DNA of 64,000 nucleotides, from positions 26,075 through 90,074 of the forward strand of contig JAPLRU010000105.1 of assembly GCA_026399025.1 (NCBI GenBank), given 5' to 3'. The notes beneath the pieces are model-generated. The model was not told where the DNA came from. It made no database searches and saw nothing but the letters and a program-made list of their open reading frames with translations. Both the position numbers and the translations under genes were made by a program. Shown one piece after another: positions 6,664 to 51,640 of the stretch (positions are counted from its first letter, which is position 1; each line of letters begins with the position of its first letter). Origin of the DNA: Methylobacter sp. (GTDB lineage: Bacteria; Pseudomonadota; Gammaproteobacteria; Methylococcales; Methylomonadaceae).

Positions 6664-9600
6664 TTAATCAATATCCTTAATCAGCGCCATCATATCCTCA
6701 ACCGACATTTTGCCGCTGACTTCGCCACCTTCCAGCAAACTATTGGCTAAATCGCGTTTGTGTTTATGCAACTCGACAATTTTGTCTTCAATGGTGTCTT
6801 TGGCGACCAAGCGATAAATCGTGACCGGGCGTTTTTGCCCCATCCGGTGGGCGCGGTCGGAGGCCTGATCTTCAACCGCCGGATTCCACCAAGGGTCCAT
6901 ATGGATCACATAATCGGCGGCGGTTAAATTCAAGCCGGTGCCGCCCGCTTTCAAACTGATTAAAAACAAATCGCCGTCCCCCGCCTGGAATGCAGTCATG
7001 GCTTTTTTCCGTTGCGGAACCGGGGTTGCGCCGTCCAGGTAATGATAGGCGATGCCTTTTTTGTCCAGCAATTCGCGAATCAGCGTTAAATGCCCGACAA
7101 ACTGGCTGAACACCAAGGCTTTATGGCGGTTTTCCAGCAATTCATCAACCAGCTCTTCAAAAGCTTCCAGCTTGGAACTGGGCAGGGTGCTGTCTTCCAT
7201 GACCAAACGCGGATTACAACAAGCCCGGCGCAGTTTCATGATTTCGGCCAAGACTTTCAGTTGCTGATGTCCGGGCTGGCCGGTGGCTTCCATCATGGTC
7301 TGCATCGCGTTCCGCCGCAGGGCTTCGTAAAGGGCGCGCTCTTCGGGGCTTAATTCGACATGCAAGGTCACTTCGGTACGGGACGGCAATTCTTTTAATA
7401 CGTCGTTTTTAAGCCGCCGCAAGATAAAGGGGCGCAACAGTTTTTTAAGCCGTTGCTGCACTTCCCTATCCTGCTCGTTTTCGATGGACTGCGCGTAACG
7501 TTGGTTAAACTTTTGCAACGTGCCTAACAAGCCCGGATTGATAAAATTAAACAAATTCCACAGTTCGCCCAGATGGTTTTCTATCGGCGTGCCGGTAGTA
7601 ATCAGTTTAAAGTCGGCCTGTAATTCCATCGCGGCTTTGGAGCGCTTGGTCAGCGCGTTTTTAATGGCTTGCGCTTCGTCGGCAACCAAGGTTTGCCAGT
7701 GTTTTTGCGCCAAGCGCTCGCCTTCGGTTTGCAACAGGCCGTAACTGCACACGATCACATCGAAAGGCCCGGCATCATCCAGCATCGCTTGCCGATCGCC
7801 GCTACCGAATTGCCGGACATTCAGCGTCGGCGCAAAGCGGCCGCATTCTTCCAGCCAGTTAATGCAGACCGAAGTGGGCGCTAAAATCAGCGTGGGCCCG
7901 TCCGGAGCGCGGGATAAAATCAGCGCCAACGCCTGTACGGTTTTGCCCAAGCCCATGTCGTCGGCCAGACAAGCGCCTGCGCCCCAGTGCGCCAAACGCG
8001 TCATCCATTGATAACCTTCGCGTTGATAATCGCGCAATTCGCCTTGCAAGGTTGACGGCAGTTTAGGGTTTAAATCGGCGGTTTCGTTAAGACGGCGCAA
8101 TTGATCCTGCCACGGTTTGGCGGCGCTGATGTTCATGCCGGTGGTGATTTCATCCAAAGCCTGCGCCGCCAGCGGATGGAATCGCACTTTGTCCTTTTGC
8201 ACCTCGCCCAATCCGGCTAAATCGTCCAAGCGTTGGCGCAATTCGCGGGTCAACGCGATAATTTGGCCGTCTTCGAGTTTTAAAAAGCGGCCCGGCGAGC
8301 TGTTTAGCAGGTTCATTAAACGCTGCATGTCCAGCACCTCCTGTTCGTCAATCTGCAACGCACCTTCGACGCTGAACCAGTCTTTTTCCTTGCGCACCGA
8401 AAATTGCGCTTGCGACAAACCGAGTTCGCGGCTGATTTGAATTTTTTTACCTTTCGGCCATTCCAGCACCGCAAAATCGCCCAAAGCCTGTAACTGCAAC
8501 AGCGTATCCAGCGCCGCTTCGGGATCGTCCAGCAGCCACTTGGCGTCTTTGTCGGCGTAGAGCTGCGGACATTCGTTCAGCACGTGTTTTAAGTGTTTTT
8601 TCTCAAGCTTGAAATCGCGGGCGGTTTGCAGTTGCTTGCCGTCGATTTCCGCCAACACCGTGGTGCCGCCTGCGCCGGGCTTGTAAAGCGGCCCGCCGGT
8701 ACTAAACGGTTGCACGAAAATCTCTATTTGTATGCCCTGCCCGACTGGTTGTAAATGAACATGCAGACGGCTGTCGGCATCGACGCTTTGCGCCAGACTG
8801 GAGGTGCCGCCTATATCGGATTGCACGGTTAACATCGAGGCGACCGAGGCAATCGAGTCGATCACTTGCTGGCGCGCCGTAGCCGGTACGGTTAAGCCTT
8901 TTTTACCCAGAATCTCGGCGACTTGGCGATGCTGGTCGTTAATTTTGTAAACCAATAAGCCGTTACCGGCGGTTTTTTGGGCAATGATTTTTTGTTTGCT
9001 AATGGCAGGAATTAATGAAATATGCAGGTTTGGCTGATGCTCCTTCACCAGCAATTGCGGTTCGGCGGTGCTGATTTCGACCGGAGCACCGGATAATTCC
9101 TGATTGACCCAGTAAATAGCCGGATGGCCGATGGCGGCTAAAATAGCCTCCTCCGACAACGCGTAAATCTCTCTACTGGAATAACCGTAGTAGCCGCTGC
9201 TTTCCTTTTCCATCTGAATTTGCGCGCAAATGCGATGATCGTGCTCGGATAAATAATCGAAGTCGGATAAATTATGATACAGACGCTTTAAAGACAGCGG
9301 ACGGCCTTTTGTCCAACGGCCGCTTTTACCCAACTTTTGTTCCTTCGGCTCTAATAAAGCCTGATTATCTTCCAAGCTGAGTACCCATATCATCCGTATT
9401 TCCTGAGGCGTCTGGCCTGCTGCCGGAGAACTTTTTAATTGGCTTAGCGCATCCAAGGCTCTTTGCCATTTCGACACTTGCGGCAATAGATCGAGAATCG
9501 CACTAAACGGTGAATCCGCATACTGCTGTGCGATAGGCTCGCAAGCCCAGGTTGTATTCTTATAACCCAAACGTTGCAGCAATGCCGAACTCACGGCGGC

Positions 9601-15920: not shown

Positions 15921-16671
15921 GCTCCGTTTCGACTGCCAAGGATGGTGGAAGTGCCTCATCCGGTCTGGAACCGGATGAGGCCAAGCTGACTTGATCGATT
16001 TGTTTATGATCGTAAATACGCTCACCGATCGGCACTTGATAACCGGTGCGTTTAATTAAAATCGCGCCGGTTGGACAAATATGCGCCGCTTGGTCTGTTG
16101 CCTCCAGGGCGGTATCTTTTAACAAGCCGCTTTCGGCATTAAAAATCAAATGCTTGTTAATGCCGCGTCCGCTGATCGCAAACACATTTTTACCATCTTT
16201 TTGTTGACTGGCGCGAACGCATAAGGTGCAAAAAATACAGCGGCTTTGGTCAATCATCACATCAGGATGTGAGGCGTCAATTTCCCGATCCGGGTAAAAC
16301 AACGGAAAATGGTTGTCGAGCATATTCAAATGGTAACCGACCGCTTGTAACTGGCAATTACCGGTTTTTTCGCAGCCGGGGCACAAATGATTGCCTTCGA
16401 CAAATAGCATCTGGGTGATTTTCCGCCGGTCGTCGATCAGTTCTTCGGTTTCGCTCAGTACATCCTGACCGTCCATGGCCGGAAAGGTGCAGGCGGAACA
16501 GTTGCGCCCGTTGACTTTCACCGTGCACAGCTTGCAACTGCCGTGCGGGGTAAACTCGGGCTGATGGCATAAATGCGGGATATAGATCCCGGCCGCCATC
16601 GCGGCATCCATAATGGTTTGACCTTCTTCAAAAGGGATAATTTTGCCATCAATGGTAATTGTTTTACTCAT
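15901..16671 (-). CDS. hoxU: Hydrogenase diaphorase subunit HoxU
   Basis: 2Fe-2S ferredoxin-like N-terminus (GSCKLCTVKVNGRNCSAC), CPGCEKTGNCQLQ, SRCIFCTLCVR. Confidence 0.92.
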   Translation of the reverse strand: MSKTITIDGKIIPFEEGQTIMDAAMAAGIYIPHLCHQPEFTPHGSCKLCTVKVNGRNCSACTFPAMDGQDVLSETEELIDDRRKITQMLFVEGNHLCPGCEKTGNCQLQAVGYHLNMLDNHFPLFYPDREIDASHPDVMIDQSRCIFCTLCVRASQQKDGKNVFAISGRGINKHLIFNAESGLLKDTALEATDQAAHICPTGAILIKRTGYQVPIGERIYDHKQIDQVSLASSGSRPDEALPPSLAVETEHVKHGE

Positions 16672-31543: not shown

Positions 31544-33052
31544 TTATATCCTGAAATTTTCAACCAATGCAGCCGCTACTTTCTCCATGCGTTGAGCCCT
31601 TGACCCTTTGATCAAAATCGCTTCATCACCTTTGAGTTCTTGCTTTAACACTTCAATTAAATCGTTTTGGTTGTCAAAAAAAGTGGCGGCTTCACCGAAA
31701 GCCGCTGCCGTATGCCGAGCGTCGGAGCCTACCGCGAAGAGACGCACAACACCGCCCGCTTTGATGAGTTCGCCCATTTGCTCATGTATTTTCAGGCTTT
31801 CAGGACCCAACTCGCCAAAGGCCCCTAAAACCAGCCAAGGTTTGCCGGGGCAGTTAGCCAATACATCCAGTCCCGCTTTCAGTGAGGCCGAATTGGCATT
31901 ATAAGTGTCATCTATAACGATATTGCCTAAACGGCTTACCAATGGTTGCAAGCGGCCAGTAACCGGTTTTACATTTTCCAGGCCTTGTTTAATCTGTTGC
32001 AGATTTATGCCCAAGGCTAAGCATGCCGCCGTTGCGGCCAATGCGTTACCGACGTTATGTCGGCCTGCGAGCTTTAGCTTTACTGTGAGCGTGCCTTTCG
32101 GTGTCGCTAATTCAAAGGTGGTGGCGAATTCATGATTAATAATTTGTGTTTTAATGGAATGCGCGGTTATATCTGCATCCTTATCTATTCCAAACGATAT
32201 AATCTTTCTGCTCCCGGCTACTGATTTCCAATAGTCGAAATAGGCGTCATCGTGATTAAGAACAGCGACGCTGTTCTGTTTCAGCGTCCGGATGATTTCC
32301 CCTTTCGCTTCGGCAACCCCGTCAACACTACCGAAACCTTCTATGTGCGCGGCTCCGACATTGGTAATAATCGCAACATCGGCTTGTGCATATCGGCTGG
32401 TATAGTCAATTTCGCCCGGATGGTTTGCACCCATTTCGATGACGGCATACCGGTGTTGTTCGTTCAAGCGCAACAAGGTCAAGGGCACGCCAATGTCATT
32501 ATTTAAATTGCCTTGCGTAAACAGCGTAGCGGCATTAACACTCAAAATCGCCGCCACCATTTCCTTGACGGTCGTTTTTCCGTTACTGCCGGTAATGCCG
32601 ACTACGGATACGGCTGATTTCTTCCTCCAAGCTCCTGCCAATTCAGCCAGTGCCAAGCGCGTATCGTCAACAACAATATGCGGTATTGATGGTCGCATCA
32701 GTCCCCTCGGCAACGGCTCCATGCGTTGCTCTACCTCGGCAACTGCTCCCTGCGTTGCTCTACCTCCTGCATCCATGCAGTCGTCCTGCTTCCGTGCAGT
32801 CATACTGATTGCGACACTTCCGCCATCCATGGCGGTCGCTGCAATGCCTTGATGCACGATTGCTGCCGCAGCGCCGTTTTGTTCCGCTGCCGCCACAAAC
32901 TCATTGCCATCGAAGTTATGGCCTTTAATCGCGACATAAAGCTGACCGGGCTTTATCGCTCTTGTATCGATACTAATCGACGATATCGCAATATCGTCCC
33001 CGACCAACACTCCCTGCACACAGGTCGCTATCTCACTCAACATCATATTCAT
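31544..33052 (-). CDS. murF: UDP-N-acetylmuramoyl-tripeptide--D-Ala-D-Ala ligase
   Basis: [37 protein letters not shown]; atypical internal segment near residues 71-121. Confidence 0.95.
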
Positions 33053-34632
33053 TGATTGCGTCTGCTCAATGCATCAAGTACAACTTGCCTGTCGCTGAAA
33101 GGTGCGCATATCCCATTGCTTTCCTGATATTGCTCATGGCCTTTGCCTGCAATCACAACGCAATCGTTTTGAGCCGCACTTGTTACCACTCTTTGTATCG
33201 CCCGTTCTCTATTTTGAATAACTTCAACCTTCGCTGATTGCACCGGTTCCGTACCGATTGCGGCACTCCCATTATCCCTGGCAGTCGAGCTGCAACCGGC
33301 TAAAATATCATTGATTATATCCAGCCCGTTTTCGTAACGTGGATTGTCATCGGTAATCACTACATGATCCGCCCAAAACTCTGCAATTTTTCCCATTTGC
33401 GCACGCTTGCCGGTATCTCTGTTGCCGCCACAGCCGAAAACTACCCATAAAGCCTGTTTGCAATGCTTGCGTAAACTGGACAAAACCTTGTCTAAGGCAT
33501 CGGGGGTATGAGCATAATCGACAAAAACCAATGGATCGGCTTCTGTACCAAAGCGCTCCATGCGACCATCAACCGGCTTTATGTCGGTTAGCCTTTGGAC
33601 TGACTCATTCAATGAAATACCCATAGCCAGCATTACCGTCAAGACAGCCAAGACATTCTCTACATTAAAATCGCCGTAGAGCGGTACTTTCACTCGCTGA
33701 AATTGATCCTGCCGGCGCAGATCAAATTCGATGCCATCGGCTTTATGCAATATGTTTTCCGCACTGACGCATTCGCCTGAATCGGCTATTTTTCCTTTCA
33801 CACTAAACTGCCAAAGTGTTACCGATTCAGGTACGGCAGCAATAATTTGGTTGCTGTAAATATCATCCAAATTTACCACCGCGAAAACTAAGCCCGGCTT
33901 ATTTAACAACTCCAGCTTGGCTTGTACATAAGCGTCCATGGTGCCGTGATAATCCAGATGATCACGGCTGATATTGGTAAATACGGCGCCTTTAAACTTC
34001 ACGCCGTTGACACGGCCCTGCTCTAAGCCATGCGAAGAGACTTCCATAGCTACCGTGCATTTTTTATTTTTTAATAATTCAGCCAGTATTTTCTGAATCG
34101 CCAAAGCATCAGGGGTAGTATTCAATGTCTTGTTGAGCTTACCCCATTCTCCCCAACCGAGCGTCCCTATAATGCCGCAATCGTCCAGCATTTGGCTCAA
34201 AAACTGACTACATGATGTTTTGCCATTGGTGCCGGTAATGCCGATAACTGTCATAAATTGGGAAGGATCGCTATAAAAGCGCGTAGCCAATTCACCCAAC
34301 TTTATGCCCAGATTTTCCACGGCGACCATGGGTACATCAATAACAGTATTACGTTGCAATGTTACCGCCAGTTGCCGACCGTTTCCGGCAGGATCAAAAA
34401 TGACTGCACAGGCACCATTATTAAGAGCCTGTTCAGCATGTGTTAAACCATGTTGTTTGGCGCCGGCTAACGCAATAAACATATCTCCTGACACCACTTC
34501 ACGACTATCCAAAGCCAAGCCGGTAACAGATATATCGATATCATCGGTGTTTACAGAGACTAGTCCGTTTAGTAACGCTTTAAGCGTCGGCATACCGCTA
34601 CGTTGCTCTTGCATTGCTCTATGATGTTCCAA
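33049..34632 (-). CDS. murE: UDP-MurNAc-tripeptide synthetase MurE
   Basis: GITGTNGKTSCSQFLSQ; VDYAHTPDALDKVL; VFGCGGNRDTGKRAQMG; DNPRYE. True start may be MPTLKALL. Confidence 0.95.
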   Translation of the reverse strand: MEHHRAMQEQRSGMPTLKALLNGLVSVNTDDIDISVTGLALDSREVVSGDMFIALAGAKQHGLTHAEQALNNGACAVIFDPAGNGRQLAVTLQRNTVIDVPMVAVENLGIKLGELATRFYSDPSQFMTVIGITGTNGKTSCSQFLSQMLDDCGIIGTLGWGEWGKLNKTLNTTPDALAIQKILAELLKNKKCTVAMEVSSHGLEQGRVNGVKFKGAVFTNISRDHLDYHGTMDAYVQAKLELLNKPGLVFAVVNLDDIYSNQIIAAVPESVTLWQFSVKGKIADSGECVSAENILHKADGIEFDLRRQDQFQRVKVPLYGDFNVENVLAVLTVMLAMGISLNESVQRLTDIKPVDGRMERFGTEADPLVFVDYAHTPDALDKVLSSLRKHCKQALWVVFGCGGNRDTGKRAQMGKIAEFWADHVVITDDNPRYENGLDIINDILAGCSSTARDNGSAAIGTEPVQSAKVEVIQNRERAIQRVVTSAAQNDCVVIAGKGHEQYQESNGICAPFSDRQVVLDALSRRNQ

Positions 34633-34772
34633 ATACGATTCTGTCTATCTCATTCATAGGGACATACCTGCTGCACAATTCACACGGATGTGTAGCGAGG
34701 GTAAATATCTCAAGCACTACGCATAATGTGTATTAAGGTAATACGGGAACAGTTATTTATTTATGCACCCTG

Positions 34773-36551
34773 TTAAGAACCTTGTCCGGTTAACAAAATG
34801 GGCATATTGTCTTGTTGATCGGGAGCAACTTCCAGTACCCTCAAGGCCCCGGCCATCACTTTAGAAAACACCGGAGCCGAGACTATCCCACCGTAGTATT
34901 GCCCCGCGGATGGCTCATCAATCATGACGACGATAATCAAGCGTGGATTTTTTGCCGGCGCCATACCGGCAAAAACGGAAAAATAACTGTTCTCGACATA
35001 GCCGCCTGCGCCGGCTTTTTTTACCGTTCCGGTTTTTCCTGCTGCGCTGTAACCATCGACTCTGGCTTCGTAAGCGGTGCCGTCTTTCATCAGCACGGTT
35101 TCCATCATGGCCCTGACCCTCTTGGCGGTCTTGGCGGAAAATATCCGCTGTTGATCAACATCTTCATCCCGCTTTAGCAAACTCACCGAATGCAAAATGC
35201 CGTCGTCGGCCAATGCGGTATAGGCTCTTGCCAACTGCAATGCTGATGCATTGACGCCATAACCAAATGACAAGGTCGCTCTATCGAATTCATGCCATTT
35301 TTGATACTCAAGCAAACTTCCACTGGCTTCTCCAGGAAAACCGGAGCCTGCCGCAACACCAAAACCCAGCTTGTTGTAAACACTCCAAAAATATTCCGGC
35401 GGCATTCTCAACGCCATCTGGCTGACTGCAACATTGCTGGATTTCTTCAGTACGCCTGTCAGATCCAGCGTCCCGTAGTTATGCACATCTTTAACCACAT
35501 GATTACCGATCTGATAGAAGCCATGAGTTTCGAAAACTTCGTTCGGTTTGACGTAGCCCCCGTCCAAAGCAGCTGCGACAACAAATGGCTTAACCGTTGA
35601 TCCAGGTTCGAACACATCTGTTAATGATCGGTTTCTGTACAGGCTTTCTTTTAAACTCTTCCGGGTATTCGGGTTAAACGACGGCTGATTGACTGCAGCC
35701 AAAATTTCCCCACTCTGAGCATCCAACACCACTAGTGCTGCTGATTTTGCCTTGTTAAGGTTAACCGCCAACTGCAATTCCCGGTATGCCAAATATTGGA
35801 TGCGCTGATCAATACTTAAATCCAGATTCCTGCCTGCAACCGGCTCTTTAATATTTTCTACATCTTCAATAATCCGGCGCTGACCATCCCTGATAACACG
35901 CTTGCTACCTGGAATTCCTTTTAACGATTTTTCGTATCCCGCCTCAAGCCCGGCCTGACCTATATCGTCAATATCGGTAAAGCCGACCAAGTGCGCTGAA
36001 ACTTCTCCTGTCGGATAAAAACGTTTAAATTCGCGCTCGAAATAAATACCCGCGAGCTTCAATGCTTTCACTTGGTCTGCAACTACCGGACTAATCTGTC
36101 GGGCAATGTAAGCAAACTGCCTATGCGTATCTCCCTTCATTAGCTCATCAATCTTTCCGTTCGGCAAACTCAGCAATTCTTCCATTTGCCTGATTTCATT
36201 TCCTTTGGTCGATTCGATCTGTTGCGGATTCATCCAAATCGACTCGACAGGCGTGCTAATTGCCAGCGGGGCGCCATTTCTGTCTTTTATCATGCCTCTG
36301 TATGCAGCGACTTCCACATCAGTAACATGGCGCATATCGCCTTGTTCTTTAAGAAACTGCTTATTCAGCACCTGCAAGTCGATGGCTCTACCAACCAGTG
36401 CTGCCATACAAGCCATTATAAAAACAATGACTATTTTCCTTCTACCGCCATAGATGGAGGATGTGTCTCGATCGGTAGAGAACCGGTGCGAGCGATCTGA
36501 AAAATTGCTGACCGGCTTACTGGTCTTATGTCTACCTTGAAAATGCATCAT
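34773..36551 (-). CDS. ftsI: Peptidoglycan transpeptidase FtsI (PBP3)
   Basis: FEPGSTVKPFVVAAALDGG, KKSSNVAVSQMAL, AAGKTGTVKK. Confidence 0.96.
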   Translation of the reverse strand: MMHFQGRHKTSKPVSNFSDRSHRFSTDRDTSSIYGGRRKIVIVFIMACMAALVGRAIDLQVLNKQFLKEQGDMRHVTDVEVAAYRGMIKDRNGAPLAISTPVESIWMNPQQIESTKGNEIRQMEELLSLPNGKIDELMKGDTHRQFAYIARQISPVVADQVKALKLAGIYFEREFKRFYPTGEVSAHLVGFTDIDDIGQAGLEAGYEKSLKGIPGSKRVIRDGQRRIIEDVENIKEPVAGRNLDLSIDQRIQYLAYRELQLAVNLNKAKSAALVVLDAQSGEILAAVNQPSFNPNTRKSLKESLYRNRSLTDVFEPGSTVKPFVVAAALDGGYVKPNEVFETHGFYQIGNHVVKDVHNYGTLDLTGVLKKSSNVAVSQMALRMPPEYFWSVYNKLGFGVAAGSGFPGEASGSLLEYQKWHEFDRATLSFGYGVNASALQLARAYTALADDGILHSVSLLKRDEDVDQQRIFSAKTAKRVRAMMETVLMKDGTAYEARVDGYSAAGKTGTVKKAGAGGYVENSYFSVFAGMAPAKNPRLIIVVMIDEPSAGQYYGGIVSAPVFSKVMAGALRVLEVAPDQQDNMPILLTGQGS

Positions 36552-51587: not shown

Positions 51588-51640
51588 CCTCGGCAACTGC
51601 TCCTGCGTTGCTCTACCTTCTACATCCATGTAGTCGTAGA
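51588..51640. repeat. Dispersed repeat, matching a segment inside murF
   Basis: CCTCGGCAACTGCTCCTGCGTTGCTCTACCTTCTACATCCATGTAGTCGT is near-identical to 32734-32784. Confidence 0.88.

Follow-up and report, generated by a model that had tools for sequence, protein, structure and literature searches.

The window, a 64,000-nt stretch of a Methylobacter draft genome (5.23 Mb in 138 contigs), contains a murF gene on the reverse strand (positions 31544-33052), next to murE (33049-34632) and ftsI (34773-36551) of a division and cell-wall cluster, both also on the reverse strand. The murF product has 502 amino acids and is matched by the Pfam models Mur_ligase, Mur_ligase_M and Mur_ligase_C. Aligned with its orthologues, the protein has exactly 49 extra residues after the motif HQGI. 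The corresponding DNA spans positions 32692-32838, that is 147 nt or 49 codons in frame, and is absent from most orthologues. These limits make exact the in-frame insertion of about 50 residues that an earlier note had read from the DNA. The same note held that the flanks of the segment lie closer together in typical MurF, and this is the case: E. coli MurF (1GG4) has four residues at this position, between residues 69 and 74, and among the matches listed from 100 other genomes of the family, all except some Methylobacter skip query residues from about 73 to 121. The empty site of one relative (L145) reads GTATCGTTG joined directly to CTGTAATACC, and the window reads GTATTGATG, the 147 nt and CTGCAATGCC. 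Filled and empty flanks sum exactly, hence nothing was duplicated at insertion.

In the AlphaFold model of MurF, 394 of the 502 residues have a pLDDT of at least 90, and most of the protein outside the insert exceeds that value. Residues 71-117 of the insert fall below 50 and are predicted to be disordered, in a loop joining two strands of the N-terminal domain. Outside the insert, the comparison with the closest relative, G117, gives a dN of 0.07 and a dS of 0.76 (dN/dS of about 0.09). Such values point to strong purifying selection on the core, and fit an enzyme that took up repeats and stayed functional, as the earlier note had supposed. An assembly artefact was considered as the source of the insert and rejected, because the same nest is found in G117, a genome of 3 contigs. 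The draft genome also holds a second MurF-like gene (contig C27, 95823-96947; L162), 43% identical to the window MurF and interrupted by an internal TAG stop, with intact-looking homologues in G083, G116 and G111.

Nested elements in murF

Judged from its sequence, the murF insert is composed of three complete elements placed one inside another: a 51-nt element B, a 48-nt element A and a second 48-nt A (51 + 48 + 48 = 147). All of their parts read on the forward strand, and matches to them were scored with two covariance models, R1 for A and R2 for B. The left part of B (16 of 51 nt) occupies 32692-32707 and its right part (35 nt), an R2 match with the palindrome CCGCCATCCATGGCGG, occupies 32804-32838; the same B is found uninterrupted in two orthologues (L112 and L144). 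The first A, which begins with CGGCAAC and ends with GTCAT, interrupts the loop of B's first hairpin. It is itself split between CTACCT and CCTGC into 29 nt at 32708-32736, a repeat matched by R1, and 19 nt at 32785-32803, CCTGCTTCCGTGCAGTCAT, which together restore its 48 nt. Between them lies the second A, complete at 32737-32784 (77.3 bits with R1), which reads CGGCAACTGCTCCCTGCGTTGCTCTACCTCCTGCATCCATGCAGTCGT and has identical cores elsewhere in the genome.

Both palindromic cores pointed out in the earlier note are present, CCGCCATCCATGGCGG at 32820-32835 and CTGCATCCATGCAG at 32767-32780. It had also described a motif CGGCAAC...TGCGTTGC in two adjacent copies. The two matches are indeed there in the window, with none in shuffles, but they belong to one 48-nt element split by another; likewise, what had been taken for dispersed palindromic repeats are repeats, nested rather than dispersed. 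The MurF of the window would thus be 49 residues longer because three small hairpin elements landed one in another with the frame unbroken. Each insertion keeps the frame since the units found in genes are multiples of three and mostly free of stops.

Besides the window, the analysis covered about 0.8 Mb of the same genome and 0.4 Mb of G117. Relatives carry this site in several other states. Two Methylobacter have B alone (51 nt, 17 codons) at the same place in murF (L112/L031, from M. tundripaludum OWC-G53F, and L144/L033), reading GTCGCATCAGTTCC.TACTGATT.CGACACTTCC... In G117 the extra DNA amounts to 198 nt, made of the B+A+A nest and another 51-nt B-like element, reversed, inside B. Apparent decayed remains are found at the insert place in three loci (L151, L114 and L156). 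Inserts of the same kind occupy a second MurF site in G083 and G104, and in another genus (G089) a B match has a flank running into the same motif as this second site (L136).

On a tree of MraY, MurE and MurF, a single gain does not account for B at the first MurF site, since a minimum of two changes is required by strongly supported branches. Any of three processes would account for the mismatch: repeated insertion at this place, seamless loss, or exchange between species. Moreover, silent divergence from G117 is lower in the insert (about 3 of 44 codons) than in the remaining murF (about 115 of 364; p = 3e-4). It could result from recent exchange, gene conversion or constraint at the nucleic-acid level; an old neutral insert passed on simply by vertical descent would not be expected to show it.

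Both observations would also suit a nest moved as a block, with B already holding one or two A, or a murF segment exchanged between species. Blocks that could be so moved exist elsewhere: 99-nt blocks, as long as A within B, are found again in three loci (L291, L375 and L403), and blocks of 102 nt that combine B with a B-like element also occur. We nevertheless consider this scenario rather doubtful, as the orthologous murF genes with B alone at the same position fit a stepwise build-up, and the trinucleotide YCT, which A uses as target (see below), is present both in B's loop and within A, making repeated local insertion easy.

Structure, targets and copies of the elements

A and B are each built of two hairpins, and the length of the unit is nearly constant (47-52 nt). 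In B, 9 of the 17 stem pairs show changes on both sides, with 40 double-change cells where shuffles give 12.5; for A the figures are 17 and 5.4. The covariation score of either element was matched by none of 500 shuffles, counts that do not represent probabilities since the structures were derived from the very sequences tested and related copies cannot be treated as independent. Four units tested as DNA fold 3.5 to 7 s.d. below their shuffles. A ends with GTCGT and B with GTCG (ACGAC and CGAC on the other strand). A search of 32500-33400 with the 4227 models of Rfam returned no match up to E = 1.

In a profile-based tally, 54 of 64 distinct A insertions are preceded by YCT (29 by CCT, 25 by TCT), with T as the last letter at 63 of them, and no target duplication accompanies A. 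B has a loose target and caused no duplication in murF. Both elements are often inserted into or beside other palindromes. Among their intergenic palindromic hosts are CCCTCTCC...GGAGAGGG and AGACCTTCCAGGTTTT...AAAACCTGGAAGGTCT (L247 2016-2066; L002-L030). In two loci, the second hairpin of A is in turn interrupted by an unrelated palindromic segment, CATAA.CCACAGGGATGTGG... (L221, about 9545-9592; L206, 3594-3689), so by its sequence a third element family seems to enter A.

The other copies in the window include three of B that had escaped the earlier note. The first (51 nt, 33237-33287, forward strand, 55.8 bits with R2) lies in frame in murE near its 3' end; the second (51 nt, 36442-36492, reverse strand, 53.0 bits) lies in the N-terminal tail of the ftsI reading frame, perhaps upstream of the true start. 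Both reading frames stay open. The third (52 nt, 15930-15981, reverse strand, 65.9 bits) is placed at the start of a gene with a Pfam-recognised 20-kDa domain of NADH oxidoreductase, probably upstream of its true start. A copy similar to the murF insert had been reported as intergenic near 51588; we find it as a 47-nt A at 51591-51637 (forward strand, 74.0 bits with R1), in no open reading frame of at least 100 aa. B seems dense around the division and cell-wall cluster: by length, about 2 of the 150 best matches in the genus would be expected within 25 kb of murF, and 16 are found there, although orthologous copies among them are not independent. Such stretches are found at 33237-36492 of the window, in G117 (C1:1576111-1593303) and in G083 (C21).

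By covariance model, with rough E-values and with the counts of A capped at about 150 scored candidates, the genome holds at least 148 copies of A and about 26 of B; other Methylobacter genomes hold 4-158 and 2-129, respectively. Several copies of A are no more than about 180 nt away from the end of a contig (contigs C43, C51, C70, C77 and C88), which suggests that the repeats break the draft assembly. The abundance of copies bears on the plainest reading of the locus, a normal loop of MurF, specific to the lineage, retained for the function of the protein and resembling the repeats by chance. Such a loop would be in frame in an essential gene and common to the window and G117, as observed, but the same letters recur throughout the genome in unrelated proteins and frames, and the AlphaFold model gives the segment no structure. 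The genomic copies lead us to reject this reading, whose probability we regard as negligible.

Among 101 sampled genomes of the family, 65 carry A and 49 carry B. Across 196 genomes of the class, A is found in 41, with some scores equal to those of the best Methylobacter copies, and B in 17, with weak scores outside the genome of the window. A also occurs on megaplasmids of Pseudoalteromonas. The pglX gene of BREX systems contains a part of it in Moellerella, Salmonella and two E. coli genomes, including systems on enteric plasmids (L457 100-3801; L460 109-3819). The PglX of Moellerella has exactly 16 residues more at the A-derived point than that of an E. coli plasmid, in frame. In another family of the class, three tandem 48-nt copies of A stand in frame in a 676-aa open reading frame (L441 1470-1613; G296:C7). 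No A was found in phage records; seven IMG/VR contigs carry A and two carry B, but these may be host DNA and we make no claim for a phage vehicle. The wide range of near-identical copies, from Methylobacter to other gammaproteobacterial families and the enteric BREX gene, suggests horizontal spread of this 47-48-nt element.

Open reading frames around the copies were called mechanically. Well inside frames of at least 150 aa lie 56 of 80 copies of B, against 82% of random positions in the same loci, which makes B nearly as common in reading frames as a random position. A is mostly intergenic, with 11 of 64 copies in frames of at least 200 aa, a threshold that differs from the one used for B. 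Across related bacteria, A and B are found within dozens of further genes that seem to work. The hosts of B confirmed by Pfam are varied. They include MurE, MurF, FtsI, a D-Ala-D-Ala ligase, AnmK, LppC, CobN, a CobB/CobQ-type amidotransferase, a pterin-binding enzyme (FolP), an aminotransferase, an Fe-S protein, exonuclease V gamma (RecC), an SbcC-like protein, an SRP54-type GTPase, an NrdR-type regulator, CcmI-type and thioredoxin-like cytochrome c maturation proteins, PilP, ABC ATPases and class I tRNA synthetases, read as ValRS and LeuRS. B is used unevenly in its reading frames: TARDGGSVAIGREPMR (19 copies) and RIGSLPIATLPPSLAV (18) lead, in counts inflated by orthologous copies, and frames rich in Trp and Cys are rare. 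As for A, a 48-nt copy stands in frame in a 482-aa open reading frame of the nitrogenase component 1 family in the genome of the window (L006 985-2430; G000:C42).

The lengths of A tell the two settings apart: 10 of 11 copies in reading frames are multiples of three, compared with 18 of 53 elsewhere (Fisher p = 7e-4). We take this as direct evidence of frame selection filtering A insertions.

Proposed mobilisation and frame selection

We propose that A and B are non-autonomous mobile hairpins, nested in murF, moved as single-stranded DNA by an enzyme of the HUH/Y1 type and filtered by selection on the reading frame. To this joint explanation we give a probability of roughly 85%. B, with its 17 codons, would have entered murF first; A, with 16 codons, would then have entered B's first loop, and a second A the first one. 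MurF presumably tolerates the added peptides since they make a disordered loop on its surface. The elements would move as single strands recognised by their hairpins, cut and joined by a trans-acting enzyme resembling that of IS200/IS605, and would insert on the 3' side of a short fixed target, which is YCT for A, with no duplication, often in or beside palindromes. Selection would then remove the copies that break needed frames.

Y1 genes are present in 93 of the 101 family genomes, many of them devoid of A. No enrichment of the elements was seen near these genes: the 73 Y1 transposase loci examined (224 kb) contain 3 B and few A, about the background. This weighs on the rival idea that A and B are classical REPs or REPINs copied by a RAYT (TnpA-REP) of the same genome. 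Compensated hairpin stems, high copy number and the Y1 transposase genes of every Methylobacter examined would all suit it, but neither element carries a GTAG tag, neither A nor B flanks the 73 RAYT/Y1 loci, and B lies mainly within genes when REPs are extragenic. On balance we hold it to be unlikely.

Tentatively, and with less than even confidence, we suggest that A and B belong to a class of fixed-length double hairpins, mostly multiples of three and nearly free of stops, that spread between bacterial families, persist in genes as 'mobile peptides' and owe their movement to an enzyme that has yet to be connected with any palindromic repeat. Comparative genomics could identify the enzyme that mobilises A. 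For murF, orthologues are available that are empty or filled once, twice or three times, and they make the mode of insertion, seamless excision and the tolerance of a conserved enzyme to insertions directly testable.

Comparison with known palindromic elements

Rickettsia is the best-known source of in-frame palindromic insertions; the present ones lie in essential genes of free-living methanotrophs with large genomes. We found no description of palindromes from Methylobacter or other methanotrophs, nor the letters of A or B, in the open-licence literature. A target-site duplication, sought at murF as for a MITE of a DDE transposon, was not found.

Insertion sequences of the IS200/IS605 family and their non-autonomous derivatives are recognised by their hairpins, insert as single strands 3' of a short fixed target with no target duplication, and excise seamlessly. 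A resembles them by its insertion 3' of YCT without duplication. However, there is no tnpA or tnpB in or beside A and B, and the units measure only 47-51 nt.

REPINs are replicating units of two hairpin-forming parts with compensatory changes, whose excision has been reported (PMC3116915, Bertels and Rainey 2011). A and B share with them and with GTAG REPs stem-loops kept by compensatory changes. In contrast, REPINs are inverted REP doublets, extragenic and next to RAYTs, while neither A nor B is an inverted doublet or lies near Y1 genes.

The GTAG and CGTC REPs are tagged short stem-loops of many copies, some of them in open reading frames of several free-living species (PMC3733652, Di Nocera et al. 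2013). Their intragenic clusters code for up to 43-82 aa, and CGTC REPs have no linked transposase (PMC3733652). A and B are likewise short multicopy stem-loops, some intragenic, and similarly lack a linked transposase. They carry neither tag, though, each unit combines two different hairpins at a fixed length, and B is mainly intragenic; the REP survey makes no mention of methanotrophs (PMC3733652).

Rickettsia palindromic elements (RPEs) are single long palindromes of 105-146 bp from an obligate intracellular alphaproteobacterium, where a guanylate kinase bearing one is active (PMC2229807). The earlier note had likened the murF insert to them. The analogy stands: in both cases palindromic mobile repeats lie in frame in genes that stay open, here those of MurF, MurE and other Pfam-confirmed hosts. 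Membership does not, as sequence, unit size and end tag differ. A and B have 47-52 nt and two separate short hairpins, instead of long terminal inverted repeats in a unit of about 105-146 bp, they are nested in one another, and their hosts are free-living gammaproteobacteria. RPE-4 and RPE-6 end in CGTC (PMC3733652), a tag not found in A and B, which end in GTCG(T). Altogether, and by analogy, A and B work like RPEs and intragenic REPs, but are set apart from them by size, end tag and linked transposase.
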